DNA from: Elusimicrobia bacterium GWC2_64_44
GTDB taxonomy: Bacteria; Elusimicrobiota; Elusimicrobia; Elusimicrobiales; UBA9959
NCBI GenBank assembly: GCA_001799845.1
Contig: MGUG01000030.1
Location: 124,001-188,000, forward strand
DNA: 64,000 bases
Direction: 5' to 3'
The position numbers were made by a program, and so were the translations under genes. The notes below the pieces were generated by a model. It did not search any database, was not told the DNA's origin, and saw only the letters and a program-made list of their open reading frames with translations. Below are positions 21,949 to 39,650 of the stretch, piece after piece (the first letter of the stretch is position 1; the number at the start of each line of letters is the position of its first letter).

Positions 21949-24900
21949 TTAGTTAAAACAGTTATCAAGGCCTTTGGAGCCGGCCAGGGCCCACTGGCCG
22001 ACGGCCGTGCCGGTAGAAACGCAGAGGTCGTTGATGCTCGAGTTGAAAACGACCGCTCCGACAGACGGAGGCGACGCCGCCTGCAGGGCGGCGGTGTCCA
22101 GGGAACGGGGCATCCAGAAGCCTTCAGCCGTGAAGGTGGACTTGTTTACCCCGGAGCCGAACTGCGCCGTGCCGTTAACGTCCAGCGTAGCCGCCGGGAG
22201 AGCCGCGCCTATGCCCACTCGCCCGTCGTTACGGACCAGCAGCGCGCCGCTCTTTACATTGAGCACGTCTTCAGTGCCGGCCAGGCCGCCGCCGAGTACC
22301 GTCAGGGAGGAATTGAACAGGGCATAGCCGGCCACGTTCAGTTTAGCCGCGGGGGAGCCGGTGCCGACGCCGGTATAGCCGGTCTGCGTGCTGACATAGA
22401 GCGCCGCGCCGGCGCGGTCGCCGCCCACCAGCAGGCTGGACCCGACGTGAAAGCGCTCTTTGGGCGTACCGGTGCTGATCCCGACCCAGCCGCCGGTACC
22501 GGTCGAGATAAACACTACCGGCGGGCTGTTCTCAACTCCTACGGCCATGTTCGTCAGCACCCTGAAGAACTCAGGCGGCGCATAGGCGGCGACCTGGGGC
22601 ACGCCTATTATGAAGCCGCCGCCGTACTTGATGCGGAAAACTCCGGAACCGCCAGTCAGGTTTCCGGAGACGGATCTGTACACCATGTCCTTGGTGACAT
22701 TGTCCACGCCCAGCGCCGCGATTGCCCCGACGAAGGGATCGGACCAGCTGATAAGGGAATCGCCGCCGAAGTTCGGGTAGAACTGAAGCTCCACGTTCTC
22801 GCTGGTCTTCTGGTCCAGCCTCACCGGCCCGCGCACGTGCAGCGCGGCCAGCGGGTCGAACGGATCGTTTAAGCTGTCGGTGCCTACGGAGAGCTTGGAG
22901 GTAGCGTAGATGGTGGTGGAGAAAACCACTCCGTCGTAAGTGCCGCCGCCGAGGGCGGTCACGGAAGCGACCACGATGGTCTGGGGGATGGCCGAGGCCG
23001 ACAGGCCGGTCAGCCCGGCGCCGTTGCCGAAGAAGCCGCCCTGCGCGGTTATGGATGAGACCGCGCTTATCCCGCCTTCTACGGTCAGTGCGTGCGTCGG
23101 AGCCAGCGTCCGGATGCCCACCCTGTCGGTGGTCGTACTGACGAAGAAGATGGGATTCGTCGCCGCGGTGCTGACCAGGACGTTGCCTACCACATGAAAG
23201 CGCTCCGCAGGGTCGCTTGTTCCTATGCCGAAGCGCCAGTAGGCGAAATCGTCCGAAGTAATGCGGAACACTTCCTGCCCGCCGGCCTCGGAGCTGGTGC
23301 CCATCGCCCTGTAGACGAAGTCGCGCTCCCTGCCGAACGCCGTGGGGTACCCCAGGGCGCCCTGGGCCGGCCCGTTGGCCGAGAGGAGGGTGTTTTTCCA
23401 GCTCAGGTAGCTGCTCCCGGCGAAACTCTGGAAATCCAGGTGCGCAAGACCGTTCGGGTTGGAGATCTTCATCCACTCGTTCACTTCCAGCGGCGCGTCG
23501 GGGTTATTGACCTGCACTCCCACGCGGCCGCCGGTAGTTACGGCAAGACTATAGTTGTTGACCGACACCGCCGTAGCCACGGTGAGCGCGTAATAATGCG
23601 CGCCGTTGTCGGCGATGGTAACGCTGGAGCCGGCCAGCCGGAGGTTGCCTGTCATGGTGTCGCCGGCTTTCAGCAGGCGGCTGCTGTCAGTGCCCTGCAC
23701 GGCCGTCAGCAGCGAGCCGTTACCCACGAAGTAAGGGGCGTCCACTATTCCGGCGCGCACCTTGATGCCGCTGGCCGTGTCCACGCTGTAGCCGGCGCCC
23801 ATGGTATCCCACGACCAGAAAGTGCCGCTGGCCGCCGTCACGTTATAGAACTGCCCGAGACCGGCGACCTTCGCGTTATCGGCGAAAAGCCCTCCCTGGG
23901 CCGTGATGCTGGAGGTGGCCAGAATACCGCCCGTCACGGAGAGCCGGACCGGGTAGGTGTACCCGCCCACGGCTACACTGCCGCCGAAGACGGAAAAGGT
24001 GGAGCCGGTGACCGAGAAAGCGTCCCCGGTGACGGTCAGGGTAGAGTTCAGCAGCGTGAGCTGGCCGGTCATGGTGTCCCCGGCCTTCAACACCTTGGAG
24101 CTGTCCTGCGTGGTGAGGTTGTAAAGCCCGCTGCCGTCGCCGTAATAAGTCGCGCCGGGAGACAGGTAGACGTGGGAACTTATCATGAGGCCGCCGCGCA
24201 CCGAAGCTGGAGCGGAAGAGATCTCCACGCCGGGCCCCAGGCGCAATTTGGGGATGGTCGCGCCCAAGGGGGAAGTGACGGTGAAGCTGGAGTTGCCCAT
24301 GGTCAGCTGGCCGGTCATGGTGTCGCCGCCCTTGCGCACGATGTTGCCGAGAGTGGAACCGTCGCCGTAGAATGAGCCGCCGTAAACCTGGCCGTCCGCG
24401 TTGACCCGGAACAGCTGCGCCTGGGCGGCGGGGGTAGGGCCGGTGGAGATCAGCAGCAGGTCGCCCGCGCCGGGGGCCGAGGAAATATGCAGGCGCGCGA
24501 GCGGGTTGGTGATGCCGCCGCCGATATTGGTATTGCCCTCATTGATGGTATACAGGTTGAGGCCGAGCACGTCCCACATGGTCAGGGCGGCCGCCTTCAC
24601 CTGCACGGAGCCGTCGGGGAACTTAAAGCCGCAGGTGTAGTCGGGCGCCGTGGCGCAGCTGGGCCAGTTTCCGGTGCTTTCCACCACGCCGGCGACCGCC
24701 AGCTTCTGGCCGGGCGAAATGCTGCCGACGGAGATGCCGCCCTGCACGAACAGGTTGGTGGAGATCGTGATGGCCCCATAGGTGGTGTTCGGCAGCGCCG
24801 CGATGATGTCGGCGCTGAAGACGGTGGTGGCGGCGGAGGCCGTGGAGGCGTAGAGGGAGTTGAAGGCGTAGGGCGAGGCCTGCAGCTTGACGCGGGGGGT

Positions 24901-25287
24901 CATGGGCTCGTAGGCGCCGGAGCAGTCGTTGTCCGAGTCCACCTGCACCTCGAGCCAGAGCGCGGTATAGTCCATGAAGAGCCCGCCGGGTATGCCGCCG
25001 GGGGTCGAGGACCCTATCTCAACGTCGTAGCGGCCCTTGCTTACGCGCAGGTTGCAGCGGTTCTCGGTGAAAAGAGGGGCGCCGCCGGTGGCCGCGCCGT
25101 AGATGAGGAACTTGAGGTCCTGCGGGGCGTCCACGGCCTCGTTGGTGACTTTACTGAGCAGGAAACCCTGGTAGTTAATGGTGGGGGCGATGACCGCCTG
25201 CGCGCGCCCGGCGAAGAGGGGAAAGAGCGCCAGCGAGGCGAGCAGCGCCGCGCGGCCGCAGGTGAACAGGGTTCTTGCTGAAGTCAT
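21949..25287 (-). CDS. Large secreted repetitive fibre-like protein
   Basis: Signal peptide; repeated 'K(A/G)GDTMTGxLxL' motifs and repeated 'VGIGT..PxxxLxVxG' units as in tail-fibre-like proteins. Confidence 0.7.
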   Translation of the reverse strand: MTSARTLFTCGRAALLASLALFPLFAGRAQAVIAPTINYQGFLLSKVTNEAVDAPQDLKFLIYGAATGGAPLFTENRCNLRVSKGRYDVEIGSSTPGGIPGGLFMDYTALWLEVQVDSDNDCSGAYEPMTPRVKLQASPYAFNSLYASTASAATTVFSADIIAALPNTTYGAITISTNLFVQGGISVGSISPGQKLAVAGVVESTGNWPSCATAPDYTCGFKFPDGSVQVKAAALTMWDVLGLNLYTINEGNTNIGGGITNPLARLHISSAPGAGDLLLISTGPTPAAQAQLFRVNADGQVYGGSFYGDGSTLGNIVRKGGDTMTGQLTMGNSSFTVTSPLGATIPKLRLGPGVEISSAPASVRGGLMISSHVYLSPGATYYGDGSGLYNLTTQDSSKVLKAGDTMTGQLTLLNSTLTVTGDAFSVTGSTFSVFGGSVAVGGYTYPVRLSVTGGILATSSITAQGGLFADNAKVAGLGQFYNVTAASGTFWSWDTMGAGYSVDTASGIKVRAGIVDAPYFVGNGSLLTAVQGTDSSRLLKAGDTMTGNLRLAGSSVTIADNGAHYYALTVATAVSVNNYSLAVTTGGRVGVQVNNPDAPLEVNEWMKISNPNGLAHLDFQSFAGSSYLSWKNTLLSANGPAQGALGYPTAFGRERDFVYRAMGTSSEAGGQEVFRITSDDFAYWRFGIGTSDPAERFHVVGNVLVSTAATNPIFFVSTTTDRVGIRTLAPTHALTVEGGISAVSSITAQGGFFGNGAGLTGLSASAIPQTIVVASVTALGGGTYDGVVFSTTIYATSKLSVGTDSLNDPFDPLAALHVRGPVRLDQKTSENVELQFYPNFGGDSLISWSDPFVGAIAALGVDNVTKDMVYRSVSGNLTGGSGVFRIKYGGGFIIGVPQVAAYAPPEFFRVLTNMAVGVENSPPVVFISTGTGGWVGISTGTPKERFHVGSSLLVGGDRAGAALYVSTQTGYTGVGTGSPAAKLNVAGYALFNSSLTVLGGGLAGTEDVLNVKSGALLVRNDGRVGIGAALPAATLDVNGTAQFGSGVNKSTFTAEGFWMPRSLDTAALQAASPPSVGAVVFNSSINDLCVSTGTAVGQWALAGSKGLDNCFN

Positions 25288-25297
25288 AGTTCCTCCG

Positions 25298-26911
25298 CTA
25301 CTTTATCACTACGACGGTGCCGTTATAGACGGTGCCGTCAGCTTCGAGCTGGTAGATATACACGCCGCCGGGCACCGTCTGCCCTCCGGCCTTGGCGTCC
25401 CAGGCCAGCGAATTCGAGACCGGCCCGGTCTTCATCGCGGCCACCTGGGCGCCGCGCAGGTCGTAGATGCGCCCTTTGACCTGCTTGTCCTGCGGGTTAT
25501 CGAAAATAAAAACCATCGTATCATTTTTGCCGTCGCCATTAGGGGTTATCAGGCGGTTCAGCAGCCCGGCCTTGTCGGCGGCGAAGCTGCCGCTGCGCTC
25601 GGTGGTGCGCAGCTGGTAGCGGCCCAGCAGGCTGGTCTCGAGCTGCACGCTGCGCTCCGCCTCGTTGACCTTGCCGAAAAGCTGCAGCCAGCGGGAGCCG
25701 TTATTATAGAACATGCTCAGCGCCTTGCCGTCCGTGGCGACGGAGGGGGTAATGGTGCCGCCGGCCTTGGCGTAAAAGAGCTTGAGCGTGCCGCTCTTGG
25801 CCAGTTTGAAGGCGCTGTCCGCCTGGATACCGCCGCGGAAGGCGGAGAATTCCACGGACTTCATTACGCGCCCGCCCAGGTCCTCGGCGTGGGAGGAGAT
25901 CTCGATGGTATAGGAGTCCATCGGGTCTCCGGAGGCCGAGTAAAAGGACCCGCCGGCCTCGGCCGGCACTTCCAGCATGCTCTGGTTGTCCGGCGCCAGG
26001 AAATACAGGCCGCCCGGGGTGCTGCCGCGCCCGTAGGAGGGAATGGATTCGCCCGCCTGGTTCACGGACCGCGCGTGATAGTAATAGACGTCGCTCGCGC
26101 CGATGATGTCCGTCCAGCTGAGCGTACTGGAAGAAGTCTCGCCGATGAATTCCCAGTCGGCGGCCGCGGGGGCCGTAGCGCGGTAGAGCGCGTATTTCTT
26201 TATTTCGTAGGGATAGGCCGGGCTGAACCGGTCGTTGAAGGGGATGCGGTTCTGGAAGCCCGCCGGCGGGATCCAGGTCATCGTCACGGAATTGCCGGCG
26301 CGGGTGATCTGGAAGTTCATCGGGGCGAGCGGCACCAGCGCGAAGGAGGCCACCTGGTTGGAAAGCTCGGAACGGATGGCGTGGGCGTTCACGGCCTCGA
26401 CGGCGAAATAATAGGTGGTCCCGGCGTTGAACCCTTCGAGCAGCCGTGTCTCCGTCCCGCCCGCCTCCAACGGGGTCCAGGCCGAAACGTACGGGGAAGC
26501 CGTCCTGAACTGTTCGTCGGTGGTGATGTACCCGGAGGTAGTGTAGCGCAGGACATAGTCGTCGGCAGCTCCGTACTGCCGCCGGGCGTCGGCGTAGGGG
26601 GCGGTCCAGGTGATGCGGAGGCCGGAGCTGGAAACGATGACCACGGCGAGGTCGGAGACCGGGGCCGGGGCGGGAAAAAAGGACAGCTTGCCGCTGCGCT
26701 GCGAGAAGGAGGGCGCCTCCTGCGTCGAGACCGAGACTTCCTGCACGTTGCCGTCGCCCTCGAAGTTGGCCGAGACCATGGAGGCGGAGCCGAAGCCGTA
26801 AGTCCCGGAAAGGTCCGCGAAGCCGGGTGAAGACAGCCCGGCGGCAAAGAGGGAGCCCGCCCACAACAGGAGGGCGGCCGGCAAGAGGGAAATGGTCAGC
26901 CTGGCGTTCAC
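25298..26911 (-). CDS. Secreted fibronectin-type-III-like protein with 'TPNGDGxND' C-terminal domain (GTG start)
   Basis: 'APAPVSDLAVVIVSSSGLRITWTAP' and 'PLAPMNFQITRAGNSVTMTWIPP' FN3-like; C-terminus 'LITPNGDGKNDTMVFIFDNP...GGVYIYQLEADGTVYNGTVVVIK'. Confidence 0.7.
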   Translation of the reverse strand: MNARLTISLLPAALLLWAGSLFAAGLSSPGFADLSGTYGFGSASMVSANFEGDGNVQEVSVSTQEAPSFSQRSGKLSFFPAPAPVSDLAVVIVSSSGLRITWTAPYADARRQYGAADDYVLRYTTSGYITTDEQFRTASPYVSAWTPLEAGGTETRLLEGFNAGTTYYFAVEAVNAHAIRSELSNQVASFALVPLAPMNFQITRAGNSVTMTWIPPAGFQNRIPFNDRFSPAYPYEIKKYALYRATAPAAADWEFIGETSSSTLSWTDIIGASDVYYYHARSVNQAGESIPSYGRGSTPGGLYFLAPDNQSMLEVPAEAGGSFYSASGDPMDSYTIEISSHAEDLGGRVMKSVEFSAFRGGIQADSAFKLAKSGTLKLFYAKAGGTITPSVATDGKALSMFYNNGSRWLQLFGKVNEAERSVQLETSLLGRYQLRTTERSGSFAADKAGLLNRLITPNGDGKNDTMVFIFDNPQDKQVKGRIYDLRGAQVAAMKTGPVSNSLAWDAKAGGQTVPGGVYIYQLEADGTVYNGTVVVIK

Positions 26912-27029: not shown

Positions 27030-27404
27030 ATGAAAGCCTTAAGGTATTTCGCCGCGCTCGCGGCGGCGGCCCTGCTAGCGCCCGCCGCGGCTTTTTGCGC
27101 CGCGTCGGCCCTGGGCCAGTCCCTCGCCCTCAACAGGCTCGTCACGCCCAACGGGGACGGCTTCAACGATACCTTCGTCTTCCGCTGCCACAACCCGCGT
27201 GATTCCGGCATCGACGCCAAGATCTTCGACGTGGCCGGCAGGGAAATAGCGGTAATGCGCGTAAAGCGCATCGGCACTACGGATTTTTATTACGACTACG
27301 AATGGAACCCCAACGCAGCCGGGAAAGCGGAAGGCGGGGTCTACATCTACCAGGTCAGGGTGGAAACCAAGGTCTATAAGGGAACTGTAATAGTAATAAG
27401 GTAG
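27030..27404 (+). CDS. Secreted small protein: signal peptide plus a stand-alone 'TPNGDGxND' domain
   Basis: 'LNRLVTPNGDGFNDTFVFRCHNP...GGVYIYQVRVETKVYKGTVIVIR'. Confidence 0.7.
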   Translation: MKALRYFAALAAAALLAPAAAFCAASALGQSLALNRLVTPNGDGFNDTFVFRCHNPRDSGIDAKIFDVAGREIAVMRVKRIGTTDFYYDYEWNPNAAGKAEGGVYIYQVRVETKVYKGTVIVIR

Positions 27405-27412
27405 CGCGGACT

Positions 27413-29383
27413 ATGAACACCGCTAAGAACCAGAAACTGCTGCCGGCAGCCCTCGCGCTCTGCGCGTGGCTGGCCGCGCCCGCCTGCGCCGCCTTCGAGG
27501 ACCTCGGCTTCGGAGCGCGCGCGCCGGGCATGGGCGACGCTTTCACCGGCGTGGCCGACGACATCTCCGCGGTCTACTACAACCCGGCCGGCCTCTCAAG
27601 CATCGAGCGCACCAAAGTGCTCGCCTCCCACTCTCTTTTCTACACCGGGCTGAGCGACGGCTCCAACCTCGGACTCAGCGTGGCCGCCCTGGCCGTACCG
27701 ATAGGGAGCGGCCGCAACGGCACCCTGGGCCTGGCCTGGCAGCAGTTCTCGCTCTCCGGCGTCTATTTCGAAAAGACAGGGCAGGTAAGCTGGGGGTACA
27801 AGTTCGACAAGGCTTCCAAATACAGCGACCTGGCGGTAGGCGGCTCGCTGAAATACCTGAGCCACGGCTTCACCCGCCTGGACGAGACTTATAACGCGGT
27901 GGAGGCAAACCTGGGCCAGAACGGCGCCACCGACCCGGTGCTGGCCGGGGCCAACACGCGCTCCGCGCTGGACGCCGACGTGGGCGCGCTCTACCGCCTG
28001 ACCCGCCGCTGGACGCTGGGCGCCGCGCTGCTCAACGCCATGCAGGCCAACGTTTCCTTCACCGACTCGGGCAAGGACCGGGTCCCCATGAAGACGCGGC
28101 TGGGGGCCTCGTACAAGAGCCTCTGGCTGCTGCTCTCGGCCGACGCGCGCTTCCAGAAAGCGCCCGACGGCAGCCTGGACAAGCAGGTGGTGGTGGCGGC
28201 GGAAAAGATCTTCCCGAGCCTGGACAAGGGCGACATCGGAGTGCGCGGCTCGCTGGGCGCCGGCGACCGCGAATTCAAGCAGGCCACGCTGGGCCTCTCC
28301 TACAAGATCCAGCGCATACAGCTGGACTACGGCTTCGCGCTGCCGCTCGGCACCGTGAAGGAGACCGCGGGCAACCACAAGGTGGCGCTCTCTTATCACT
28401 TCGGCGCGCCAACCCAGACAGAGCTGGCCGAGACCGAACTGCTGGACCAGTTCAAGCGCCTGCGGGAGGCGCAGAACTACAAGAGCCCGCGCGACACCGC
28501 CAGCCTCAACGACCCGCGCCTCGCCGAGGTGAAGGAACAGGTGCGCAAAGAGAATTACTACGCGGCCAACAAGCTGCTGCTGGAGAAAGCAAACGAGCTG
28601 CTGCCGGATTCTTCGGTGGTCAACATGACGCGTCGCCTCTCGGCGGTGGCCGCCTTCTTCCCGTCGCTGGCCGTAGAGAACCGGCAGAAGGCCCGCTGGG
28701 AAGAGCTGCTCTCCGCCGGCGCGCGCGACCTGATAGCAGGCAACGACCTCCGCGCGATGAAGGAGCTGACCTACGCGCAGAGCCTTAACCAGCAGGACTC
28801 CGCCCTCTCCAATTTCCTCGACCGCGCGAGCGAGCTGACCCGCGTGGCGCCAGACAGGGTACCGTCGGATTTCAGCCGCGGCTGGGCGGAATTCAAGCTG
28901 GCGGAATCCGACGATTTCTACGCCAAGAAGCGCTACAACGAGGCGCTGCGCAAGCTCGAAGAGCTGCTGGAGATAGAGCCCAACCACCTGATGGCGCTCA
29001 AGAAGAGCGGCTCCTGCAACTATATGCTGGGCAACTTCGCCCGCGCCGCCGGCGCCTGGGAGCGCGCACTGCGCTACGAGCCGGACAATGCGGAGAAGGT
29101 CAAGCTGGGCAAGATGTCTGACGAGGCCAAGACCAAGAGCGCCGGCGCAACCTGGGAACCCGGCGGCCCTCAGCCAGGCGCGCCCGAGCCGGAAGCGGAG
29201 GCCGCCAGCGGCAAGAGCGCCGACGCCCGCGAGATAGAGAAGATCTACCAGACCGGCGCTGATCACTACGCTAAGGGGGAATACGGCAAGGCGGCCGACG
29301 CCTTCCGCAGGATCCTGACGCTGGATCCGCAGAATACGCAGGCCAAGAAGGCCCTGGAGCGCATTATACGGCTGTCGCGGTGA
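27413..29383 (+). CDS. PorV/UPF0164-family outer-membrane protein with C-terminal TPRs
   Basis: 'FGARAPGMGDAFTGVADDISAVYYNPAGL' family signature; TPR-like repeats after about residue 500. Confidence 0.75.
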   Translation: MNTAKNQKLLPAALALCAWLAAPACAAFEDLGFGARAPGMGDAFTGVADDISAVYYNPAGLSSIERTKVLASHSLFYTGLSDGSNLGLSVAALAVPIGSGRNGTLGLAWQQFSLSGVYFEKTGQVSWGYKFDKASKYSDLAVGGSLKYLSHGFTRLDETYNAVEANLGQNGATDPVLAGANTRSALDADVGALYRLTRRWTLGAALLNAMQANVSFTDSGKDRVPMKTRLGASYKSLWLLLSADARFQKAPDGSLDKQVVVAAEKIFPSLDKGDIGVRGSLGAGDREFKQATLGLSYKIQRIQLDYGFALPLGTVKETAGNHKVALSYHFGAPTQTELAETELLDQFKRLREAQNYKSPRDTASLNDPRLAEVKEQVRKENYYAANKLLLEKANELLPDSSVVNMTRRLSAVAAFFPSLAVENRQKARWEELLSAGARDLIAGNDLRAMKELTYAQSLNQQDSALSNFLDRASELTRVAPDRVPSDFSRGWAEFKLAESDDFYAKKRYNEALRKLEELLEIEPNHLMALKKSGSCNYMLGNFARAAGAWERALRYEPDNAEKVKLGKMSDEAKTKSAGATWEPGGPQPGAPEPEAEAASGKSADAREIEKIYQTGADHYAKGEYGKAADAFRRILTLDPQNTQAKKALERIIRLSR

Positions 29384-29390
29384 CGCGGCC

Positions 29391-30704
29391 ATGAAACTCT
29401 TCCACAAACTCAGCGCGGCTCTGATGGCCGCCGCCCTGGCGGCGGCGCTGCTGCTTTCCGCCATCTTCTTCAGCTTCCAGAACCGCACTGTCAGGCAGGC
29501 CCAGGAGGCCCGCCTTCAGGCGTTGGAGCAGTCCGTCGCGGCGATGATAGGAGAAGCGGAGCTGGCCGGCGACCCGCTGATGGCGGTGGACTATCTGTCC
29601 GGAGTCTGCTCGTCAAAACCGGAAATAGATTTTTGCGACGTAGACATAGGGCGCGGGGCGCGGCCGGTCCATACTACCCGCAAGAAAGCGCCGCACAAGA
29701 GCGACTCCCTGATCACGAAAGAGATAAGGGGTAAAAAGTTCGCGGCCCGCATTAATTTCTCATCCCAGGCGCTAGAGCTGGAGCGCCGCGTAGCGCTGGC
29801 GGGCGTCTGGCGCGACCTGGCAGCCGCCTTCCTGGTCTCTATGGTCGCGGCGGCCCTTATCGGCCTGCTGCTGGCCCGCCGGCTGACGCGCCGGCTGCGG
29901 CGGCTCGCAGCCGAGGCCGCCGAGGTAGGCGAAGGAAAGTTCGGCGTGAAGACCGACGCTTCGGGCTCCGACGAGGTGGCCGAGCTGGCCGGCGCGCTCA
30001 ACACCATGTCCGACCGGTTGCTTGAGCTGGACGCGATGAAGAAGAATTTCACGGCCTCCGTCACCCACGAACTGCGCTCCCCGCTAGGCGTGATAGAAAC
30101 CTACGCCGCCATGCTGCTCAAAGAAAAAGAACATTTCCGGGCAGAGGACCTGGAGGTTTTTGCGCGCATAAAGGAGAACGCCGGCCGCCTGGCCAATTTC
30201 GTCACCGCGATGCTGGACCTTGCAAAGCTGGAGCGCGGCAAGATGGAGCTGCGCGCGGCGCGCGAAGACCCGCTGGCCCTCGCGCGCGACGCGGCCGACT
30301 TCCTGCGCCCGAAGGCGGAGGAGAAAGGCGTGACGCTCGTAGTGGAGGCGGCCGGGACCGGCGCGGCCCTGCTGGACCGCGAGCTCCTGACCCACGCGCT
30401 CACCAACCTGCTCTCCAACGCCATTAAATTCACGCCGGAAGGGGGCAAAGTGACGGTGCGCGCCCTGCTGTCCGGCGGCAAGTTCCGCGTCGAGGTGCAG
30501 GACACCGGCCCCGGCCTCAAGGACTGCGAGGGAGACAAACTCTTCGCGCCCTTCGCCCAGGGATCGGCCGCCCCCGGCCACGGCGGCACCGGCCTCGGCC
30601 TCGCCCTCGTCAAATCCATCGCCGAGCTCCACCAAGGCACCGCCGGCTGCGCCCCCGTCCCCGCAGGGGGAGCCCTGTTCTGGATAGAAATACCAGTTGC
30701 ATGA
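29391..30704 (+). CDS. Sensor histidine kinase (HAMP, HisKA, HATPase)
   Basis: Two TM segments, H-box 'VTHELRSPLGV', N-box 'LTNLLSNAIKFTPEGG', G-box 'GTGLGLALVKSI'. Confidence 0.92.
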   Translation: MKLFHKLSAALMAAALAAALLLSAIFFSFQNRTVRQAQEARLQALEQSVAAMIGEAELAGDPLMAVDYLSGVCSSKPEIDFCDVDIGRGARPVHTTRKKAPHKSDSLITKEIRGKKFAARINFSSQALELERRVALAGVWRDLAAAFLVSMVAAALIGLLLARRLTRRLRRLAAEAAEVGEGKFGVKTDASGSDEVAELAGALNTMSDRLLELDAMKKNFTASVTHELRSPLGVIETYAAMLLKEKEHFRAEDLEVFARIKENAGRLANFVTAMLDLAKLERGKMELRAAREDPLALARDAADFLRPKAEEKGVTLVVEAAGTGAALLDRELLTHALTNLLSNAIKFTPEGGKVTVRALLSGGKFRVEVQDTGPGLKDCEGDKLFAPFAQGSAAPGHGGTGLGLALVKSIAELHQGTAGCAPVPAGGALFWIEIPVA

Positions 30705-30890: not shown

Positions 30891-30929
30891 TTCTAACTGT
30901 TACAGCGAAGAAAGAAACAAACGGAGGGG

Positions 30930-31130
30930 TGGCAGGGGTGCTGCCCCCCGAACCCTTTGCGGAAGGGGGGGCCCCGCACTGCGGATTTGAATCTGTAAGC
31001 GCTGTTCAACAGGCGGAAATCATTCGGAGAAGCAGAGACGAAGCGACTGTTGATACTAAATCCACAGTGTGGGGGGAAACCGACGCAAGGGTTTCCATCT
31101 TCCAGGGTTCGGGGGGTAGTACCCCTGCCA
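30930..31130 (+). ncRNA. ~200-nt long-hairpin element (candidate structured RNA or MITE-like repeat)
   Basis: Arm 30931-30956 GGCAGGGGTGCTGCCCCCCGAACCCT pairs fully with 31104-31129 (24 WC + 2 G.U on the + strand); inner stem 30972-30988/31058-31074. Confidence 0.5.
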
Positions 31131-31225
31131 GGCCCCCGACTGGGCTTCTCGCGGTTCTCAGGAAGGCGGGTTTAACTTCGCCGTAATAACTTTGTAACCT
31201 GCTTAATATAGAATTAAAGAGAACT

Positions 31226-32662
31226 ATGAACCCGATTTCACGCCTTTTCGCCATTTCCGCTCTTTGCTTCGCCGTCAGCGCGGGCGCGCAGGAACAGCCC
31301 GCGCCCTCGCCCAGCGCGCAGGCGGCCGAGCTCTCGTCGCGCATGCAGGCCGACGTCTCCGCCCTGCTCGAGCAGCTGGTGGGCCGCGGCCGCTCCCAGG
31401 CCTTCGTCTCCGTAGAGGGGGAAATAGTCCTCAAGAGCAAGAGCGAATCGGGCCCCACGCCCGAAGAGAACCTCACCCTGCCCGGCTACAATTCAGTCAA
31501 CATCCTCGAAAAGACCGGCGAGTTCATAAAGCAGCAGCGCGAGGAAAGCCAGAAAACCACCGAATTCCGCGTCAAGAAACTCACCGTCTCGCTCGTCTTC
31601 GACAGGTCCATCCCCGACACCCGCGCCAACGCCATCAAACTGCTGATCTCCCAGGTGCTGCGCGTCAACGAGGCCCGCGGCGACACCATCATCAGCGACA
31701 AGTCCGAGATGATGCCGTGGTGGAAGAGCGCCCTGGAAGCACCCGAGATACGCCCCGTGCTCGTGGCCGCCGCCTTCGGCGCCCTCGCCCTCGCCGTGCT
31801 GTTCGTGCTCGGCTATATTCTCGCCTCCAAGCTGCTGTCAGGCTTCGTGGACTACGCCCGCATCAACGCGCCCTCGCCCGCCGGTCCCGCCGGCGCTGGC
31901 CCCGGCGCCGCGCCGGCCGGCCTGGAAGGCCCCGGGGGGGAGATGGGCGAGATCATTGACGTCGAGGCGCGCGCCGCCGGGAGCGGCGGCATGCTGACCG
32001 CCGGCTCCGCTTTCGAATTCATGGAGAAGCTGCCGCCCGCCGAGAGCGCCGAGCTCCTGGCCGACCTCCCCGACGAGGACGCGGCCATCATCATCGCCAA
32101 CCTCGCCGACCGCAGGCCGCACATCTCCTCCAAGATCCTGCTAGCCCTCCCGCCGGTAAAGAAACAGTCGGTCTCGGCGCACCTGCTGGGCCTTAAGCAG
32201 GCCGAGCCCGAGCGCGTCTACGAGATAGAGAACGACCTGCGCCTCAAGCTCGAGAAAAGCCTGAAGGGCGCCGAAAAGCTGGGCCGCCTCCTGTCCCTGG
32301 TGGACGAGGGCGCCCGCAGCGAGATCATGGACAACCTCGCGCGCGCCAACCCCAAGGGCTCCGAGGAGCTGCGCCGCAAGATGGTCACCTTCGACGACCT
32401 GTGCCGCCTCGACGACAAGAACCTGCGCCCGCTGGTAGTCTCCATGCCCTACGCGGAATGGGCCGCCGCGCTCTACGGCGCCGGGGAGACCCCCGCCGGC
32501 AACGTGCTGCGCCTGCTGCCCGAGGACGTGCGCCTGGTGGTCAAGGACATGCTGGCCACCCGCCCCGAAGAGGAAAAGATCATCGGCGCCAGGGCCAAGA
32601 TAATTTCCGCGGCCATCGAGCTCAGCGCCAAGGGCCGCATCATCATCAAGGAGGGCATGTGA
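31226..32662 (+). CDS. FliF-C-terminus-like / FliG-like composite membrane protein
   Basis: Signal peptide; 'VKKLTVSLVFDRS...EARGDTIISDK' resembling the FliF C-terminal region; single TM 'PVLVAAAFGALALAVLFVLGYILA'; cytoplasmic part 'FMEKLPPAESAELLADLPDEDAAIIIANL' resembling FliG. Confidence 0.6.
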   Translation: MNPISRLFAISALCFAVSAGAQEQPAPSPSAQAAELSSRMQADVSALLEQLVGRGRSQAFVSVEGEIVLKSKSESGPTPEENLTLPGYNSVNILEKTGEFIKQQREESQKTTEFRVKKLTVSLVFDRSIPDTRANAIKLLISQVLRVNEARGDTIISDKSEMMPWWKSALEAPEIRPVLVAAAFGALALAVLFVLGYILASKLLSGFVDYARINAPSPAGPAGAGPGAAPAGLEGPGGEMGEIIDVEARAAGSGGMLTAGSAFEFMEKLPPAESAELLADLPDEDAAIIIANLADRRPHISSKILLALPPVKKQSVSAHLLGLKQAEPERVYEIENDLRLKLEKSLKGAEKLGRLLSLVDEGARSEIMDNLARANPKGSEELRRKMVTFDDLCRLDDKNLRPLVVSMPYAEWAAALYGAGETPAGNVLRLLPEDVRLVVKDMLATRPEEEKIIGARAKIISAAIELSAKGRIIIKEGM

Positions 32663-34641
32663 GCCGCCCTTCCGACGCCTTCAATTCCGAAATGGATTAC
32701 CTCTGGCGCGCCGTGGGCGACGCCCAGGACGCCTCGGCCCGCTCCGAGAAAGAGCGCGCCGAAGCCCGCCACGCCCTGGAGCAGGCGGCCTCGAAAGCGG
32801 GCCACCTGGAGCGGCAGCTGGCCGAAAGCCGGACCCGCGAGCGCCAGCTCAAAGCGGAGACGGAGCACCTGAAAGAAGCGGCCAGGAAGGACGAAGACAC
32901 CCTCTCCCGCGCCGCCGGCAAGGCGAGAGCCGCCTCGGAGCTGCAGACGCAGCTGCGCAGGAAAGAGAACGAGAGCACCCTGCTCGACGCCGAGCTGCAG
33001 GGCCTGAGGGCCGAGACCGCCAGCCTCCGCGAGGCCCTGGCCGCCCGCGAAGCCGCCATAGAAACTTTCAAGCAGCAGATAGCCGGGATCACCTCGCTGC
33101 CGGAGATAGCGCGCACCCTGAAAGAAGACTCCCGCGCCTCCGGCAAGCAGAGATCCGTCTACGAATACCTCCTCGGCAGCCTGGAAACCGGCCGCCGCGA
33201 GGCAAAGCAGGCGGCCGACGAACTGGCCGCGACCGCGGAGCGGGAAAACCAGGCGCGCGCGGCGCTCGCCGTCTCCGAGAACGAGCTTTCCGGCCTCCGG
33301 GCCGAGCTGGTCATCAAGCGCCAGGGGCTGGCCTCGCTTGAGGCGGCCCTGGCCGAGTCGAGCGCGAAAGAGAACCTCTCCGCCGAAGAGCGGGCGGCCC
33401 TCCGGGCGCGCGCGGCCGCACTGGGCGCGGCCCTGGAAGAGAAGGAGCGCTCGCTGGGCGCCGCGCTGAAAGACTGCGCCGCGCTGCGCAGCGCTCTGGA
33501 CGCCTCCAAGCTGGAGGCGCAGCGCCTGCGCCAGGCCGCCGACGAGCACGCCCAGAGCGCGCAGGAGCAGCGCAACAATTTCACCGGGGCGGTAGCCCAG
33601 GTTTTCGACCTGCAGAAGCGGGCCTCGGAGTTTAAGAGCGCCCTGGCGGACGCCCAGGAGCGGGCCGGCGCCCTCGCGGTCGAACTGAAGCAGCGCGACG
33701 CCGACATTGAGAAGGTCAACGGCCTGCTGCGCGAAGCCAAACTGGCCGGGGGACAGGAAAAGGAGATTTCCAGGCGCGCGGCGCTGAAGATCAAAGCGCT
33801 CGAGAACGACCTGGAAGGGCTGAAGACCAGGCTCGCCGCCTCCGACGACTACTCCGCCCGGCTGCTAAAAGCCCTGGAGGCGCGCGACCAGCAGATAGCC
33901 GCGCTGCACAACGATCTCAAGCGCATCCCCGAAGTGGAACTGGAGAACGAGGACCTGCGCCGCAAGAACATCAAGTTCAGCGGCCTGCTGCTGCGCGAGC
34001 AGGCCGACTTCACCGCCAAGATGCTGGCGTCGCTGGAAAAGACGGCGCGCGACCTGAAGGCCTTCAACCTGCGCATCCCCGCCGCCGAGCGCAAGGCGCT
34101 GGAGCCGGGCCTCAAGAACCTGCTGGGCTCGGTGAACCTGCTCAAGGGCTGGCAGGAATACCTGGACCCGGAAACCCCGGAGCTGGAGGAGACCGACCTG
34201 GCCGGCTTCGTACGGGGAGAGACCGAGAAGTGGGAGCGCGCCTTCAAGCAGCGCAAGATCTCCGTTACCTCGGCCATCCTGAACCCGCGCCTGCGCGCAC
34301 GCGTCTCCGTCGAGCGGCTGAAAATGCTGTTCTACCAGCTGGTGAAGAACTCCTACGAGCGCCTGCAGCAGGGCGGCAGCCTGCGCGTGACGCTGAAGGG
34401 CTCGGAGGACGGGCGGGAGGCCGTGCTCGCCTTCGAGGATACCGGCCCCGGCTTCGCCCGCGAGGCGCTGGACAAGCTTTTCGCCCCTTTCAACACCACG
34501 GATAAAGGCAAAGCCGGCATCGGCCTCGCCGTAGCCCGCCGCATAGCCGAGAAACACGGCGGCACGCTGACCGTAGCCAACAAGGCGGAGAGAGGAGCGG
34601 TGGTGGAAGTGAGGCTGCCGCTGGGAAACGCGGCGCCGTGA
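32659..34641 (+). CDS. Long coiled-coil protein with C-terminal histidine-kinase HATPase domain (GTG start)
   Basis: Coiled coil then N-box 'QLVKNSYERLQ', 'FEDTGPGFA', 'GKAGIGLAVARRIAEKHGG'; overlaps the previous stop by 4 nt. Confidence 0.75.
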   Translation: MSRPSDAFNSEMDYLWRAVGDAQDASARSEKERAEARHALEQAASKAGHLERQLAESRTRERQLKAETEHLKEAARKDEDTLSRAAGKARAASELQTQLRRKENESTLLDAELQGLRAETASLREALAAREAAIETFKQQIAGITSLPEIARTLKEDSRASGKQRSVYEYLLGSLETGRREAKQAADELAATAERENQARAALAVSENELSGLRAELVIKRQGLASLEAALAESSAKENLSAEERAALRARAAALGAALEEKERSLGAALKDCAALRSALDASKLEAQRLRQAADEHAQSAQEQRNNFTGAVAQVFDLQKRASEFKSALADAQERAGALAVELKQRDADIEKVNGLLREAKLAGGQEKEISRRAALKIKALENDLEGLKTRLAASDDYSARLLKALEARDQQIAALHNDLKRIPEVELENEDLRRKNIKFSGLLLREQADFTAKMLASLEKTARDLKAFNLRIPAAERKALEPGLKNLLGSVNLLKGWQEYLDPETPELEETDLAGFVRGETEKWERAFKQRKISVTSAILNPRLRARVSVERLKMLFYQLVKNSYERLQQGGSLRVTLKGSEDGREAVLAFEDTGPGFAREALDKLFAPFNTTDKGKAGIGLAVARRIAEKHGGTLTVANKAERGAVVEVRLPLGNAAP

Positions 34642-34647
34642 GCGAAT

Positions 34648-35328
34648 TTACAGTTTGAAGATGTAGCCCAACCCGAACACAGTCCGTATCTTGGAGCCGA
34701 AGCGGCCCAGCTTCGAGCGCAAGGCCTCTATGCGCTTGTCCACGGCGCGCGTCCCGGCTTCCGTCCCCAGCTTCCAGACCTGCTCCAGCAGCACGGTCCG
34801 GGCGACCACGCGCCCAGGATTGCGCAGGAAATAGAGCAGCAAGTCGAACTCCAGGGCCGTCAGGCGCACCTTGACGCCGCCTACCGCGGCGCTGCGCGCC
34901 TCCGGCGAGACCGTCAGGGCCCCGTAGGAGTACTCGGACGGCTTTGCGGGCGGCGGCGCTCCCGCCGCGGCGCGGGCGAGCAAATTCTGCACGCGGGCCC
35001 GGAACAGCGCGGGCTCGGGGGGAAAGGAGAAATACTCGTCGGCCCCGTTCTCGAGGGAGAGGGCGGCGGCCGCCGGGGAGTAGGGCCCCGGGCCCGTCAG
35101 CACCAGGAGCAGCCCCGCCGTGGCCTTGTCGCCGCGCAGCACGGCCGTCAGGTCACGGCCGGACATGTCCGGCAGGGACGCCTCTATAACCGCCAGGCGC
35201 TCGCCGGCCGGGGACTTCAGGAAGGCCGCGGCCGAGGGATAAGTTTTAAGGCGGAAGCCGTGCAGGGCCTCCGCCAGGAAGGCGGCAAGGGCCGGAGAGC
35301 CCACGCAGGCCGCGGCCGGTTTTTTCAT
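34648..35328 (-). CDS. OmpR-type response regulator with degenerate receiver
   Basis: C-terminal 'LTALEFDLLLYFLRNPGRVVARTVLLEQVW...VDKRIEALRSKL...RTVFGLGYIF'. Confidence 0.85.
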   Translation of the reverse strand: MKKPAAACVGSPALAAFLAEALHGFRLKTYPSAAAFLKSPAGERLAVIEASLPDMSGRDLTAVLRGDKATAGLLLVLTGPGPYSPAAAALSLENGADEYFSFPPEPALFRARVQNLLARAAAGAPPPAKPSEYSYGALTVSPEARSAAVGGVKVRLTALEFDLLLYFLRNPGRVVARTVLLEQVWKLGTEAGTRAVDKRIEALRSKLGRFGSKIRTVFGLGYIFKL

Positions 35329-35702
35329 GCGGGGCGGACCGCGGCCTTGATGCGCCGCGACAGCTCGTCGGGATCGAAGGGCTTGAGCACGTAGCCGGCG
35401 GCCCCGAGCTTGAGGCCCTCGGAGACCATGTCAAGCTCCGAGCGGACGGTGAAGAAGATGATGGGGACCTTGGCCAGCGCCGGCACCTTGCGCAGGCGCC
35501 GGGCGGCCTCGAAGCCGCTGATATCCGGCAGGCCCACGTCGAGCAGGATCAGGTCCGGCGGGTCTTCCTCGGCCAGTTTCAGGCCCGGCAGCGCGGCCGG
35601 CGCCGTAACCACCGAGCAGCCGGCCTTGCCGGCTATGCGGGCGGCGATGCGGAGGTAATCCGGCTCGTCGTCCACCACGAGCACTCGGGGACGGGGGGTC
35701 AT
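35325..35702 (-). CDS. CheY-like receiver protein
   Basis: 'VLVVDDEPD', 'DLILLDVGLPDISG', 'KPFDPDEL'. Confidence 0.9.
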   Translation of the reverse strand: MTPRPRVLVVDDEPDYLRIAARIAGKAGCSVVTAPAALPGLKLAEEDPPDLILLDVGLPDISGFEAARRLRKVPALAKVPIIFFTVRSELDMVSEGLKLGAAGYVLKPFDPDELSRRIKAAVRPA

Positions 35703-36085
35703 TTATTGGGCAGCAGGGCGAGGACTTTCTTCTCCAGGTAGGACAACTCCACGGTCTTGCTCATGAACTCGCGGCAATTGGCTTCCTGGCGGAACAGCTC
35801 GCTCATGTTCTTGTCGAAAAAAGAGCCGGTAATGACGAGGACGGGGATGGAGCGGGTCTCGTCCTCCACCTGCAGGTTGCGGATGACCTCGATGCCGCCG
35901 ATGTCCGGCATCATCACGTCGCAGAGGATGATGTCCGGGCGGATCAGCTTGGCCTTGGCCAGGCCCTCGCGCCCGTTCTCCGCGATATCGACGGCGAAGC
36001 CGAGGTCGGTAAAGTAGTCGCAGACCATGGTGCGGAACTCGACATTGTCGTCTATGATCAGCATCTGGTTCTTTTTAGGTTCCAT
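35699..36085 (-). CDS. CheY-like receiver protein
   Basis: 'MLIIDDNVEFR', 'DIILCDVMMPDIGG'. Confidence 0.9.
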   Translation of the reverse strand: MEPKKNQMLIIDDNVEFRTMVCDYFTDLGFAVDIAENGREGLAKAKLIRPDIILCDVMMPDIGGIEVIRNLQVEDETRSIPVLVITGSFFDKNMSELFRQEANCREFMSKTVELSYLEKKVLALLPNK

Positions 36086-36118
36086 AAGGATTTAGTATAT
36101 GTCAATTCGCCCGCGTTT

Positions 36119-38242
36119 TCAAGAGGGGGACGGGATGGGCGGCGGGGGGGCGGCCATGGTCTTGGACACGGTGAAGATGAACTTGCTGCCCTTGCCCACC
36201 TCGGACTCGACCCAGATCTTACCCTTGTGCAGCTCTACGGTCATCTGGCACATCGCCAGGCCCAGGCCGAAGCCCTGGCTCTTGTGCTCCTCCATCTGGG
36301 AGTACTTCTCGAAGATCTCCTTGCGCTTGGCCTCGGGAATGCCGGGGCCGGTGTCCTCCACGGCGAAGAACACCTGCTGCGCGTCGTCCCAGGCCGACAG
36401 CGTGATGCTGCCGCCGCCCGGGGTGAACTTCAGCGAGTTGCCCATCAGGTTGGTGATGACGCGCTCCAGCAGGATCGGGTCCGCCGTGAACTGGAGCTTG
36501 GCCGCGGGCGCGGAGACCGAGAGCTTGATGTTCTTGGGCCCGGCCACCGGCTCGTGGTTGTCCTTAACGCGCGTGATCAGGGCCTCGGCGTCGATAGTGT
36601 CGAGCTGCAGCGACATCGTGCCGCGTTCCAGCTTGGTCACGTTCAGGATGTCGTCTATCATGCCGCGCAGGCGGCGCGAAGAATAAAGCATGCTGGCCAG
36701 GTACTTGTCGGTAGCCGGCGACGGGCCGATCTTCTTCATCAGCAGCTCGGTGTAGCCCTGCAGCGTGGAGAGCGGGGCGCGCATGTCGTGCGTGATCATG
36801 TGGAAGAAGTCTTCCTTGGCCTTCTCTATCTCCTTCTCGCTGGTGATGTCGCGGATGATGATGACGCGGCCGGGGCGCTTCAGCGTGGCGAGCAGGAACT
36901 GGTTGGAGATGATGCGGAAGCTCTTGGTGACGGGATTGCCGCCCTCGTTGGAGAGCGGCGCGTCCACTTCCTGCTTCAGGTATTTTTCCTTCACCGCCAG
37001 CATGTCGGTGAGCGCCTTGAAGAAGGCCTCGTTCTTCACCGAGCGGGGCACGCCCACCTCGGGGGAGATCTTGGGGATGCCCAGCAGGCGCAGGGCGGTA
37101 TTGTTGGAGTAGATCATCGAGCCGCGGTCGTCTATCAGCAGCACGCCGTCGGAAATGGTGTCTATCAGCGCCTGGGCCTTGCCCTTCTCCTCCACGATCT
37201 GGTTCAGCTGGAAGGCGCGGTAGGCCTGCAGCTCGAGCATCAGCCGGTTCAGGATGCCGACCAGGACCTTTATCTCCGGCCAGCCCTCCGACGCTATCAC
37301 CTGGTCGAGGTGCTGGGTCTTCAGGAACTGCTTGACCCCGTTGACCATGTTGTTCACGGGGCGGATGATGCGGGCCGAGACCATGAACACCACCACCATG
37401 GTTATCACGAAAATTATGACGGCGAGGAAGGAGAAGACCGCTATGGACTTGCGCTGCTTGCCGTAGAGCTCGTCCTCGGACTGCACCGACACGGCCGCCC
37501 AGTCAAGCTTGTCGATGGCGGCGTAAGCGCCGGAGTAATCCTCTCCCGAGAAGGCGAACTTGGCCAGCGTGCCGGTGCGGGCGCCGCCGCGGAAAACTTT
37601 CTTCAGGTCGGCGGGCGTGTAATCCAGGCCCTTCATGTCCTGGCAGGGCAGCGGCCGGCCCTGTCCGTCGGAGATGAAGACGCGGCCGCTGCGGCCGGCC
37701 TGCTGGGAATTGATCTTGCCCAGCAGCTTGTCCATCGAGAAATGAAAGAGCACCACGCGGCCGTCCACCAGCGGGTAGGCGAGGGGGAAATAGGCCTGGC
37801 CTTTCAGACAGACCACCTCCCCGGTGGAGACCACCCCGGACTCGCTCGCGCGGGTGGTGAGCGCGACCGCGTAGGAGGCCAGGGACTTCTTCTCCTTTAC
37901 TTTCTCGCTCTGCAGGAAGAACAGCTCCTTGCCGTTCTTGTCCAGCACGCTGAGGGACATGATGTCGGAATTGATGCGGGCGGCCTGCTGTATCACCTGG
38001 GCTTCGTCCACCTTGCGGCCCCGCAGCGGGTTCTCCAGCTCGTAGAGGAAGGCCAGGTTGCGGTTGGTGTTGAGGAACCACTCGTCCACGTTGACGGCGG
38101 AGAGGCGGGAGAGCCCCTTGTGCAGCTCGAAGTAGCTGCCCACCGAGGAATTGTACTGGTAGACGTTCCAGCCGACGGCCAGCACCAGCGGCAGCACCGC
38201 TATGCCCAGCAGGATCAGCAGGAACCTCGTGGTCAGTTTCAT
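36119..38242 (-). CDS. Sensor histidine kinase with extracellular domain, HAMP-like, PAS-like, HisKA and HATPase
   Basis: H-box 'MITHDMRAPLSTLQGYTELL', N-box 'ITNLMGNSLKFTPGGG'; two TM segments. Confidence 0.92.
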   Translation of the reverse strand: MKLTTRFLLILLGIAVLPLVLAVGWNVYQYNSSVGSYFELHKGLSRLSAVNVDEWFLNTNRNLAFLYELENPLRGRKVDEAQVIQQAARINSDIMSLSVLDKNGKELFFLQSEKVKEKKSLASYAVALTTRASESGVVSTGEVVCLKGQAYFPLAYPLVDGRVVLFHFSMDKLLGKINSQQAGRSGRVFISDGQGRPLPCQDMKGLDYTPADLKKVFRGGARTGTLAKFAFSGEDYSGAYAAIDKLDWAAVSVQSEDELYGKQRKSIAVFSFLAVIIFVITMVVVFMVSARIIRPVNNMVNGVKQFLKTQHLDQVIASEGWPEIKVLVGILNRLMLELQAYRAFQLNQIVEEKGKAQALIDTISDGVLLIDDRGSMIYSNNTALRLLGIPKISPEVGVPRSVKNEAFFKALTDMLAVKEKYLKQEVDAPLSNEGGNPVTKSFRIISNQFLLATLKRPGRVIIIRDITSEKEIEKAKEDFFHMITHDMRAPLSTLQGYTELLMKKIGPSPATDKYLASMLYSSRRLRGMIDDILNVTKLERGTMSLQLDTIDAEALITRVKDNHEPVAGPKNIKLSVSAPAAKLQFTADPILLERVITNLMGNSLKFTPGGGSITLSAWDDAQQVFFAVEDTGPGIPEAKRKEIFEKYSQMEEHKSQGFGLGLAMCQMTVELHKGKIWVESEVGKGSKFIFTVSKTMAAPPPPIPSPS

Positions 38243-38246
38243 GGCG

Positions 38247-38873
38247 TCAGATCTCGTGGCGGACTATGTTTATCTCTATGCGCCGGTTCTTCGAGCGCCC
38301 CTCGGGGCTCTCGTTGGACTGCACTGGCTTGAACTCGCCGTAGCCCACCGCGGAAAGCTTCTCGGGGGCGACGCCTTCCTTGACGAAGAACTGCAGCACC
38401 GTGAAGGCGCGCGCGCTGGACAGCTCCCAGTTGGAGCGGAAGCGCGTACCGCGGCCCAGCGGCCTGTTGTCGGTGTGGCCCTCTATCTGTATGGGGTTCG
38501 GCAGGTCCTTGAAGACCGCCGTCAGGCGGCGCAAATGGGGATAGGAGGACTCCTTCAGCACGTCGCTGCCGGGGGCGAAGAGGATCGGGTCAGAGAAGTT
38601 GATGCTGATCTTGTTGGCGGAGATCTCCACCTGGGCTATCTGCTGGATGCCGTGCTTGGAGAACAGCGTGCTGGCCACCTGCGTATCCCGCCCGAAGGTC
38701 TCCTCTATGGCCTTCTGGGAGAACTGAGAGGTGATGCTCTTGGAGCTGTAGAAAGCGAACAGGATCATGAAGAAGATCATGAGGTAGCTCATCATGTCGC
38801 CGTAGGTGATGGCCCACAGCGCGCCCCGGTTGAGCTCGTTCTCCAGTTCGTCCTCGCGTTCGTAGAAGCGCAT
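38247..38873 (-). CDS. MotB/OmpA-like stator protein
   Basis: 'LWAITYGDMMSYLMIFFMILFAFYS' (plug/TM with Asp) and OmpA-like 'IQIEGHTDNRPL...NWELSSARA'. Confidence 0.88.
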   Translation of the reverse strand: MRFYEREDELENELNRGALWAITYGDMMSYLMIFFMILFAFYSSKSITSQFSQKAIEETFGRDTQVASTLFSKHGIQQIAQVEISANKISINFSDPILFAPGSDVLKESSYPHLRRLTAVFKDLPNPIQIEGHTDNRPLGRGTRFRSNWELSSARAFTVLQFFVKEGVAPEKLSAVGYGEFKPVQSNESPEGRSKNRRIEINIVRHEI

Positions 38874-38879
38874 AGATCC

Positions 38880-39650
38880 TTATTTGGCCTTCGCGCCGGC
38901 GGAGTCCGTGGGCTGGTAGCCGCGCAGGTGCATCTCTATCAAATGGGGCGTCTTGCCCGACATGATGTCTATCACGCCCTCGAGGATGAGCTGCAGCACC
39001 AGCGTCTCCTCCATGGCGCGCAGGCGGATCTTGTTGGCCACCGGCACGCAGAACATATTGGAGAAGCCGATGCCGAACAGGGCCGACGTGATGGCCACGG
39101 CCATCGAGCGGCCTATCGCCGTGGGGTCTGAGATATTGCTAAGCGTCTGGATGATGCCGAACAGCGTGCCGATCAGGCCGAACATCGGGCTCAGCACGCC
39201 GGCGGTGCGGTACAGGTTGGAATCCTCCTGCACGTCGAGACGGCGGCGGCGGATCTCCTCTTCCAGGATGGCCCGGGTCTCGCGGGACTCTGCGCTGATC
39301 ATGGCCACGGAGACCGCGCGCTTGAGGAAGCCGCCGGCGAAGGAGGGGTCGGTGCTGGTCAGCGCCATGATGCCGCCCTGCTTCTGCGCCGTCTCGGCCA
39401 TGCCGACCAGCGTGCGCACGGCCTCCTCCACGGAGGGGATCTTGGGCGAGGCGAAAGTGTCGGCCAGGGCCCGCAGGCCGGCCAGGAAGCGCTTGTAGGA
39501 GGTGTTGATGAAGATGGCCGCCAGCGTGCCGCCCAGCACTATTATCATGCCGTGCGCGTTGAACAGCTTGTCGCCTACTCCGGAGGAGACGGCGCCCCAG
39601 GCCACAACAGCGGCGCCGAGGAGGAAACCGATCAGTGTCATTATGTCCAT
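38880..39650 (-). CDS. MotA/ExbB-family stator protein
   Basis: 'GMIIVLGGTLAAIFINTSYKRF', 'MFGLIGTLFGIIQTL...AVAITSALFGIGFSNM'. Confidence 0.9.
   Translation of the reverse strand: MDIMTLIGFLLGAAVVAWGAVSSGVGDKLFNAHGMIIVLGGTLAAIFINTSYKRFLAGLRALADTFASPKIPSVEEAVRTLVGMAETAQKQGGIMALTSTDPSFAGGFLKRAVSVAMISAESRETRAILEEEIRRRRLDVQEDSNLYRTAGVLSPMFGLIGTLFGIIQTLSNISDPTAIGRSMAVAITSALFGIGFSNMFCVPVANKIRLRAMEETLVLQLILEGVIDIMSGKTPHLIEMHLRGYQPTDSAGAKAK

Follow-up and report, generated by a model that had tools for sequence, protein, structure and literature searches.

We analysed a stretch of 64,000 nucleotides from Elusimicrobia bacterium GWC2_64_44 (contig MGUG01000030.1, positions 124,001 to 188,000; hereafter the window), which contains a locus encoding a fusion of FliF- and FliG-like sequences, the stator proteins MotA and MotB, and several signalling proteins (Table 1). 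The stop codon of the fusion gene overlaps by 4 nt the GTG start (32659) of a gene for a coiled-coil HATPase protein, and this pair converges on a minus-strand operon encoding MotA, MotB, a sensor kinase, two CheY-like receivers and an OmpR-type regulator. Both the coupling and the operon had been claimed in a preliminary description made from the sequence alone, together with the composite nature of the fusion, its signal peptide and its one transmembrane (TM) helix, and we recovered all of them: Pfam, PDB and AlphaFold/Foldseek comparisons agree on the composite protein. The preliminary description covered only part of the system, making no mention of a PorV/PorP-like barrel with tetratricopeptide repeats (TPRs), of proteins with CHU_C domains, of four further copies in the genome, or of a spread through the phylum.

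For the fusion protein, Pfam identified FliG_C (E=1.5e-14) and FliG_M (5.8e-7), both above cut-off, and a phmmer search of the PDB retrieved FliG chains (1lkv at 9.2e-15). The signal peptide is followed by a single TM helix at residues 178-196. An AlphaFold2 model (mean pLDDT 75, pTM 0.35) predicts a periplasmic a-b-b-a-b domain (helix 29-52, strands 57-69 and 112-125, helix 131-147, strand 152-159), a long TM helix (175-214), a disordered linker (218-259) and FliG-like helices (264-468). Foldseek matched this model to FliG-M/C chains, with E values down to 4.7e-9; for FliG-C alone, the root-mean-square deviation was 1.4-2.1 Å, including 1.8 Å to the MotAB-bound solved chain 8ucs. The folds of the FliF S-ring and of FliG-M/C, with which the preliminary description proposed a structural comparison, are both matched. 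We found no YscJ_FliF N-terminal match in Pfam, no FliF RBM1 or RBM2 and no second TM helix in the window fusion, and Pfam did not match FliG_N, for which the C35 copy of the fusion gave a weak match below cut-off. The window gene is half of a FliF, the S-ring part alone, joined to a FliG without a recognisable FliG-N. Its orthologues within the family are 48-95% identical.

The window MotA could be aligned over residues 1-246, its full length, with solved flagellar MotA/PomA chains, bearing out the assignment in the preliminary description. An ExbB/TolQ identity was rejected, as no ExbB chain occurred among the PDB matches at the threshold used. Equivalents of Escherichia coli P173 and P222 are retained in all five MotA sequences of the genome and the proton-carrying Asp32 in six of its seven MotB sequences, the exception (C7b) having Gly, making a working proton channel likely. 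We additionally noted two MotB genes for one MotA at the C7 and C54 loci (L010:11022-12466 and L011:7505-8835).

We investigated the rest of the source assembly (3.09 Mb, 90% complete) using family searches, on which all genome-wide statements here are based. FliG_C occurs in five copies, every one inside a fusion of 480-650 residues, and these five fusions share only about 20-25% pairwise identity. Seven genes contain PF01618: five encode MotA, each adjoining one fusion (pairs within about 6.3 kb), and two are of ExbB/TolQ type and adjoin ExbD/TolR- and TonB/TolA-like genes. We identified neither FlhA nor, in the form of FliMN_C, FliM or FliN, in searches that did not extend to flagellin, rod and hook genes; the complete flagellar regulon whose presence elsewhere the preliminary description had considered was not encountered. 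In this same genome, a homologue of FlbD/SwrD (8.7e-24) immediately precedes motA in the C35-type operon (L008:6672-6896).

The organisation of these loci is broadly conserved. A window-type cluster of ten genes, with barrel and TPRs, kinase, fusion and coiled-coil HATPase on the plus strand and OmpR-type regulator, two CheY-like receivers, kinase, MotB and MotA on the opposite strand, is collinear and keeps its gene orientations in 19 of 20 genomes of the family (in places clipped by a contig end), at per-gene identities of about 30-99%, showing that the neighbourhood put forward in the preliminary description is maintained in relatives. The C35-type operon, found in many metagenome-assembled genomes, encodes a giant FlgD_ig protein, a PorV-like barrel with TPRs, a fusion with TPRs, a coiled coil, FlbD, MotA, MotB and a lipoprotein; its barrel scores above the PorV_fam cut-off, unlike that of the window. 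For 90 fusion-sized loci flanked on either side by 6 kb or more of sequence, most of them from two subfamilies, we counted partners within 8 kb, using hidden Markov models built from the genome's own proteins, and identified MotA in 83, MotB in 83, a PorV-like barrel in 81, a C-terminal domain (CTD) of type IX secretion system (T9SS) type in 61 and FlbD in 36. Matches of these models across the 64-kb window were confined to genes of the motor locus. Distances between FliG sequences and between their neighbouring MotA sequences are strongly correlated (r=0.96, 0/1000 permutations), a value inflated through shared species history, yet the classes coexist within single genomes. Class assignments of FliG and MotA were concordant in 86 of 96 cases, and the ten discordant cases were a flagellar locus and distant loci.

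Across 295 Elusimicrobiota genomes, FliG_C was present in 120, with up to eight copies per genome and mostly in fusion-sized frames. FlhA was identified in three genomes, of which only two (G032 and G216) also contain FliG_C; FliG is therefore found without FlhA in 118 of 120 genomes. Flagellar genes were reported as absent from Elusimicrobia in an earlier study (PMC7031533). One of the two genomes, G216, contains a fusion as well as a flagellar FliG. In a quick tree, a branch separates 70 fusions from five flagellar FliG sequences (SH-aLRT 89), and the fusions resolve into several deep subfamilies, whose finer placement is unsure owing to long branches. Two matches in Verrucomicrobia were FliG-sized frames of 352 aa. 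Genomes listed without FliG_C include many small ones (1.3-1.7 Mb) of one family (f2) in the same order, which suggests lineage-specific loss. Within the open-access literature, the part that was searched, we found no prior description of a fusion motor in Elusimicrobiota.

Homology, gene pairing and co-divergence support the rotor/stator device proposed in the preliminary description, and we judge it very probable that the locus encodes a rotor and stator which operate independently of a flagellum. That this motor belongs to the envelope and acts on surface proteins is probable to a lesser degree, and such a device may serve one of the roles named in the preliminary description (gliding, motility on surfaces, or transmission of force in the envelope). 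We propose a proton-driven machine of flagellar ancestry, in which the fusion would form a ring: the RBM3/S-ring domain would lie in the periplasm, the single TM helix would cross the inner membrane and FliG-M/C would sit beneath it. A covalent link would replace the joint of FliF tail and FliG-N, and the rotor would function without FliM and FliN; a full-frame fusion of FliF and FliG is known to assemble rings, and a Salmonella FliF-FliG fusion mutant is motile (PMC6079021). Peptidoglycan-anchored MotA5B2 units, which in known motors rotate and so push FliG (PMC9389320), would push the FliG part of this ring. The periplasmic part of the ring may then hand force to the PorV/PorP-like outer-membrane barrel with its periplasmic TPRs, and the barrel to surface proteins with T9SS-type CTDs, resulting in gliding-like adhesin movement or energised export, along a path that would be analogous to that of GldLM acting on SprB in Bacteroidota. 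Kinases and CheY-like receivers of the window type may tune or switch the motor.

Several observations weigh against this interpretation. The YscJ_FliF_C match of the window fusion (0.0037) lies below the Pfam cut-off, and Foldseek matches to FliF S-ring chains have a probability of 1.00 yet E values of 0.04-0.1. We nevertheless accept the FliF part because of the predicted structure and because the C5 paralogue matches YscJ_FliF_C over its whole length (1-147/147) at 1.2e-8. The torque charges of E. coli FliG (K264, R281, D288/D289 and R297) are mostly unconserved, and MotA R90 and E98 are conserved only in part, indicating that the rotor contact differs in detail from that of E. coli. Seven of the 90 fusion loci have no MotA within 8 kb, and in one relative (G213, locus L155) the window-type cluster is intact save for missing MotA and MotB. 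The make-up of the neighbour census and the inflation of the FliG-MotA correlation, given above, point in the same direction, and ring assembly, torque, the direction of force, outer-membrane contact and cellular output are steps that we infer.

A different function is conceivable for the same components, in that FliFG/MotAB might replace GldLM/PorLM and energise T9SS-like secretion instead of movement, driving substrates through an SprA-like translocon and a PorV shuttle. The fusions are flanked by PorV-like barrels and T9SS-type CTD proteins, and 58 of the 59 genomes of the family, that of the window among them, contain an SprA/Sov-like gene. Several papers describe the SprA/Sov T9SS as specific to Bacteroidota; the Elusimicrobiota family matches TIGR04189 at 2.8e-51, with 174 of 200 bits and thus below the equivalog cut-off, and a profile of the SprA alignment matched nothing in the PDB. 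GldM_1st was above cut-off in none of the 295 genomes, a weak negative because the search had no positive-control genome. However, the SprA-like gene lies on a contig other than that of the window (C44:97199-102481; L220:7100-12484), the 19 kb around it contain no fusion, and SprA-like genes also occur in fusion-free genomes (G123, G169, G178, G212 and G260). The motor is therefore no general requirement for the SprA-like translocon, and for this reason we lowered our estimate of a replaced T9SS motor, which we now regard as unlikely. Less likely again is a sensory scaffold, in which the kinases would read the FliFG ring as a checkpoint or mechanosensor and MotAB would report load or ion motive force without performing work. 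There is a precedent in the Campylobacter kinase FlgS, which reads FliF/FliG assembly (PMC7064773), and the window fusion is translationally coupled to an HATPase protein and has two kinases and three receivers or regulators for neighbours, all of them conserved. The coupled HATPase protein, however, has no conserved phospho-acceptor His among 21 orthologues, and the signalling genes are absent from the C35-type operon core and the C54 locus, where MotAB and the barrel are again present.

The homology to FliF, FliG and MotAB, and the FlbD gene adjoining motA in the C35 operon, might also be expected of a decayed flagellar remnant or an ordinary duplicate of a flagellar gene. We rejected this explanation as very improbable, considering the phylum counts of FliG_C and FlhA, the synteny and the neighbour census: frames are intact and gene order is kept over large divergence, the five copies each have their own MotAB in a genome that lacks FlhA and FliM/FliN, and the fusions stand apart from flagellar FliG in the tree and coexist with it in G216. 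Finally, an anti-phage system built on MotAB, as in Zorya (ZorAB), shares with the locus a MotB-type subunit, and the window MotB matches ZorB models (3e-25), as expected of any MotB. MotA had no ZorA match, and no effector or otherwise convincing defence match was found among the other locus proteins tested; without a ZorA-type MotA in the cluster, we dismissed this possibility as negligible.

The rotor/stator device shares with the flagellar motor the S-ring domain, FliG-M and FliG-C, a MotA with full cytoplasmic domain, a MotB with proton-carrying Asp and OmpA domain and, in one subfamily, FlbD beside motA. It differs in a rotor that lacks RBM1/RBM2, the first TM helix of FliF and, in the window copy, a clear FliG-N, and that is a single polypeptide, in a genome with several modules, ties to PorV-like barrels and no FliM/FliN or FlhA. 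Engineered and Salmonella FliF-FliG fusions (PMC6079021) likewise join the FliF ring and FliG in one polypeptide and can assemble rings and be motile, but are mutants of full flagella, whereas the Elusimicrobiota fusion is natural, truncated and widespread. The gliding and T9SS apparatus of Bacteroidota (GldLM, SprA, PorV, PorP/SprF and CTD adhesins) is similar in its SprA-like translocon, PorV/PorP-like barrels, CHU_C-type domains and TPR proteins, and in an ion-driven inner-membrane motor nearby; in Elusimicrobiota, by contrast, this motor consists of MotAB and an FliFG rotor, and GldM was not found in the search described above. The Myxococcus gliding motor AglRQS is also of the MotAB family and works without a flagellum, and the two MotB genes per MotA at C7 and C54 are a further likeness; AglRQS is not known to possess a FliG rotor. 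A tentative case can be made for placing the Elusimicrobiota device in its own class of ion-driven rotary machines, apart from the flagellum, GldLM and AglRQS: a one-protein FliF-FliG rotor with dedicated MotAB, of which each cell has several divergent versions with separate partners, in a nearly flagellum-free phylum and acting on T9SS-type surface proteins of the outer membrane. Every part has known homologues, and such a class would be deserved if rotation were shown without a flagellum.

FliG is generally taken as a marker of flagella. In a survey from 2025, 11% of non-motile species had rotor proteins but no filaments, and an alternative function was raised only as a possibility (PMC12199754). 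The fusion modules are a concrete, conserved and multi-copy candidate for such a function, with named partners. If the proposed mechanism is correct, a flagellar rotor/stator pair would be working without export gate or C-ring partners, which bears on the origin and re-use of rotary motors, and envelope motors associated with surface proteins of T9SS type would be known from one more phylum.

Table 1. Genes of the motor locus and its surroundings, with positions in the window.
Feature	Position	Strand	Evidence
Secreted protein with fn3 and CHU_C domains, candidate for a surface protein/adhesin	25298..26911	-	CHU_C 1.3e-7, above cut-off; fn3 2.1e-9
Small secreted protein, nearly all CHU_C (type IX secretion signal) domain	27030..27404	+	CHU_C 1.6e-7, above cut-off
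Outer-membrane PorV/PorQ- and PorP/SprF-like beta-barrel, C-terminal TPRs	27413..29383	+	PorP_SprF 1.3e-8; PorV_fam NF033709 1.1e-17, below cut-off
HAMP-HisKA-HATPase sensor kinase, conserved cluster member	29391..30704	+	Pfam; synteny
FliF(S-ring)-TM-FliG(M+C) fusion, 478 aa, proposed one-protein rotor	31226..32662	+	Pfam, PDB, AlphaFold/Foldseek
Coiled-coil protein, C-terminal HATPase domain	32659..34641	+	HATPase_c 5.2e-20
OmpR-type regulator	34648..35328	-	Trans_reg_C 5e-18, only DNA-binding family matched
CheY-like stand-alone receiver 2	35325..35702	-	Response_reg 1.2e-27
CheY-like stand-alone receiver 1	35699..36085	-	Response_reg 7.1e-19
dCache-PAS-HisKA-HATPase membrane sensor kinase	36119..38242	-	Pfam
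MotB, TM/plug with D32-equivalent Asp and OmpA peptidoglycan-binding domain	38247..38873	-	OmpA 1.4e-20, MotB_plug 1.4e-9
MotA, full-length MotA/PomA type, stator	38880..39650	-	PDB MotA 3.4e-36 over 1-246

We noted minor features in other genes of the locus. The OmpR-type regulator has a receiver-like N-terminus that Pfam does not recognise, with E at the phospho-acceptor position (VIEASLPDMSG). Adjoining the fn3-CHU_C gene on the minus strand (21949-25287) is a gene for a secreted protein of 1112 aa, for which we obtained no convincing family match. A scan for promoters and terminators 5' of the fusion gene found none, and the gap upstream of this gene contains a 35-nt imperfect inverted repeat (86%; 30922-30956 and 31104-31138), which may be a small repeat or mobile element.

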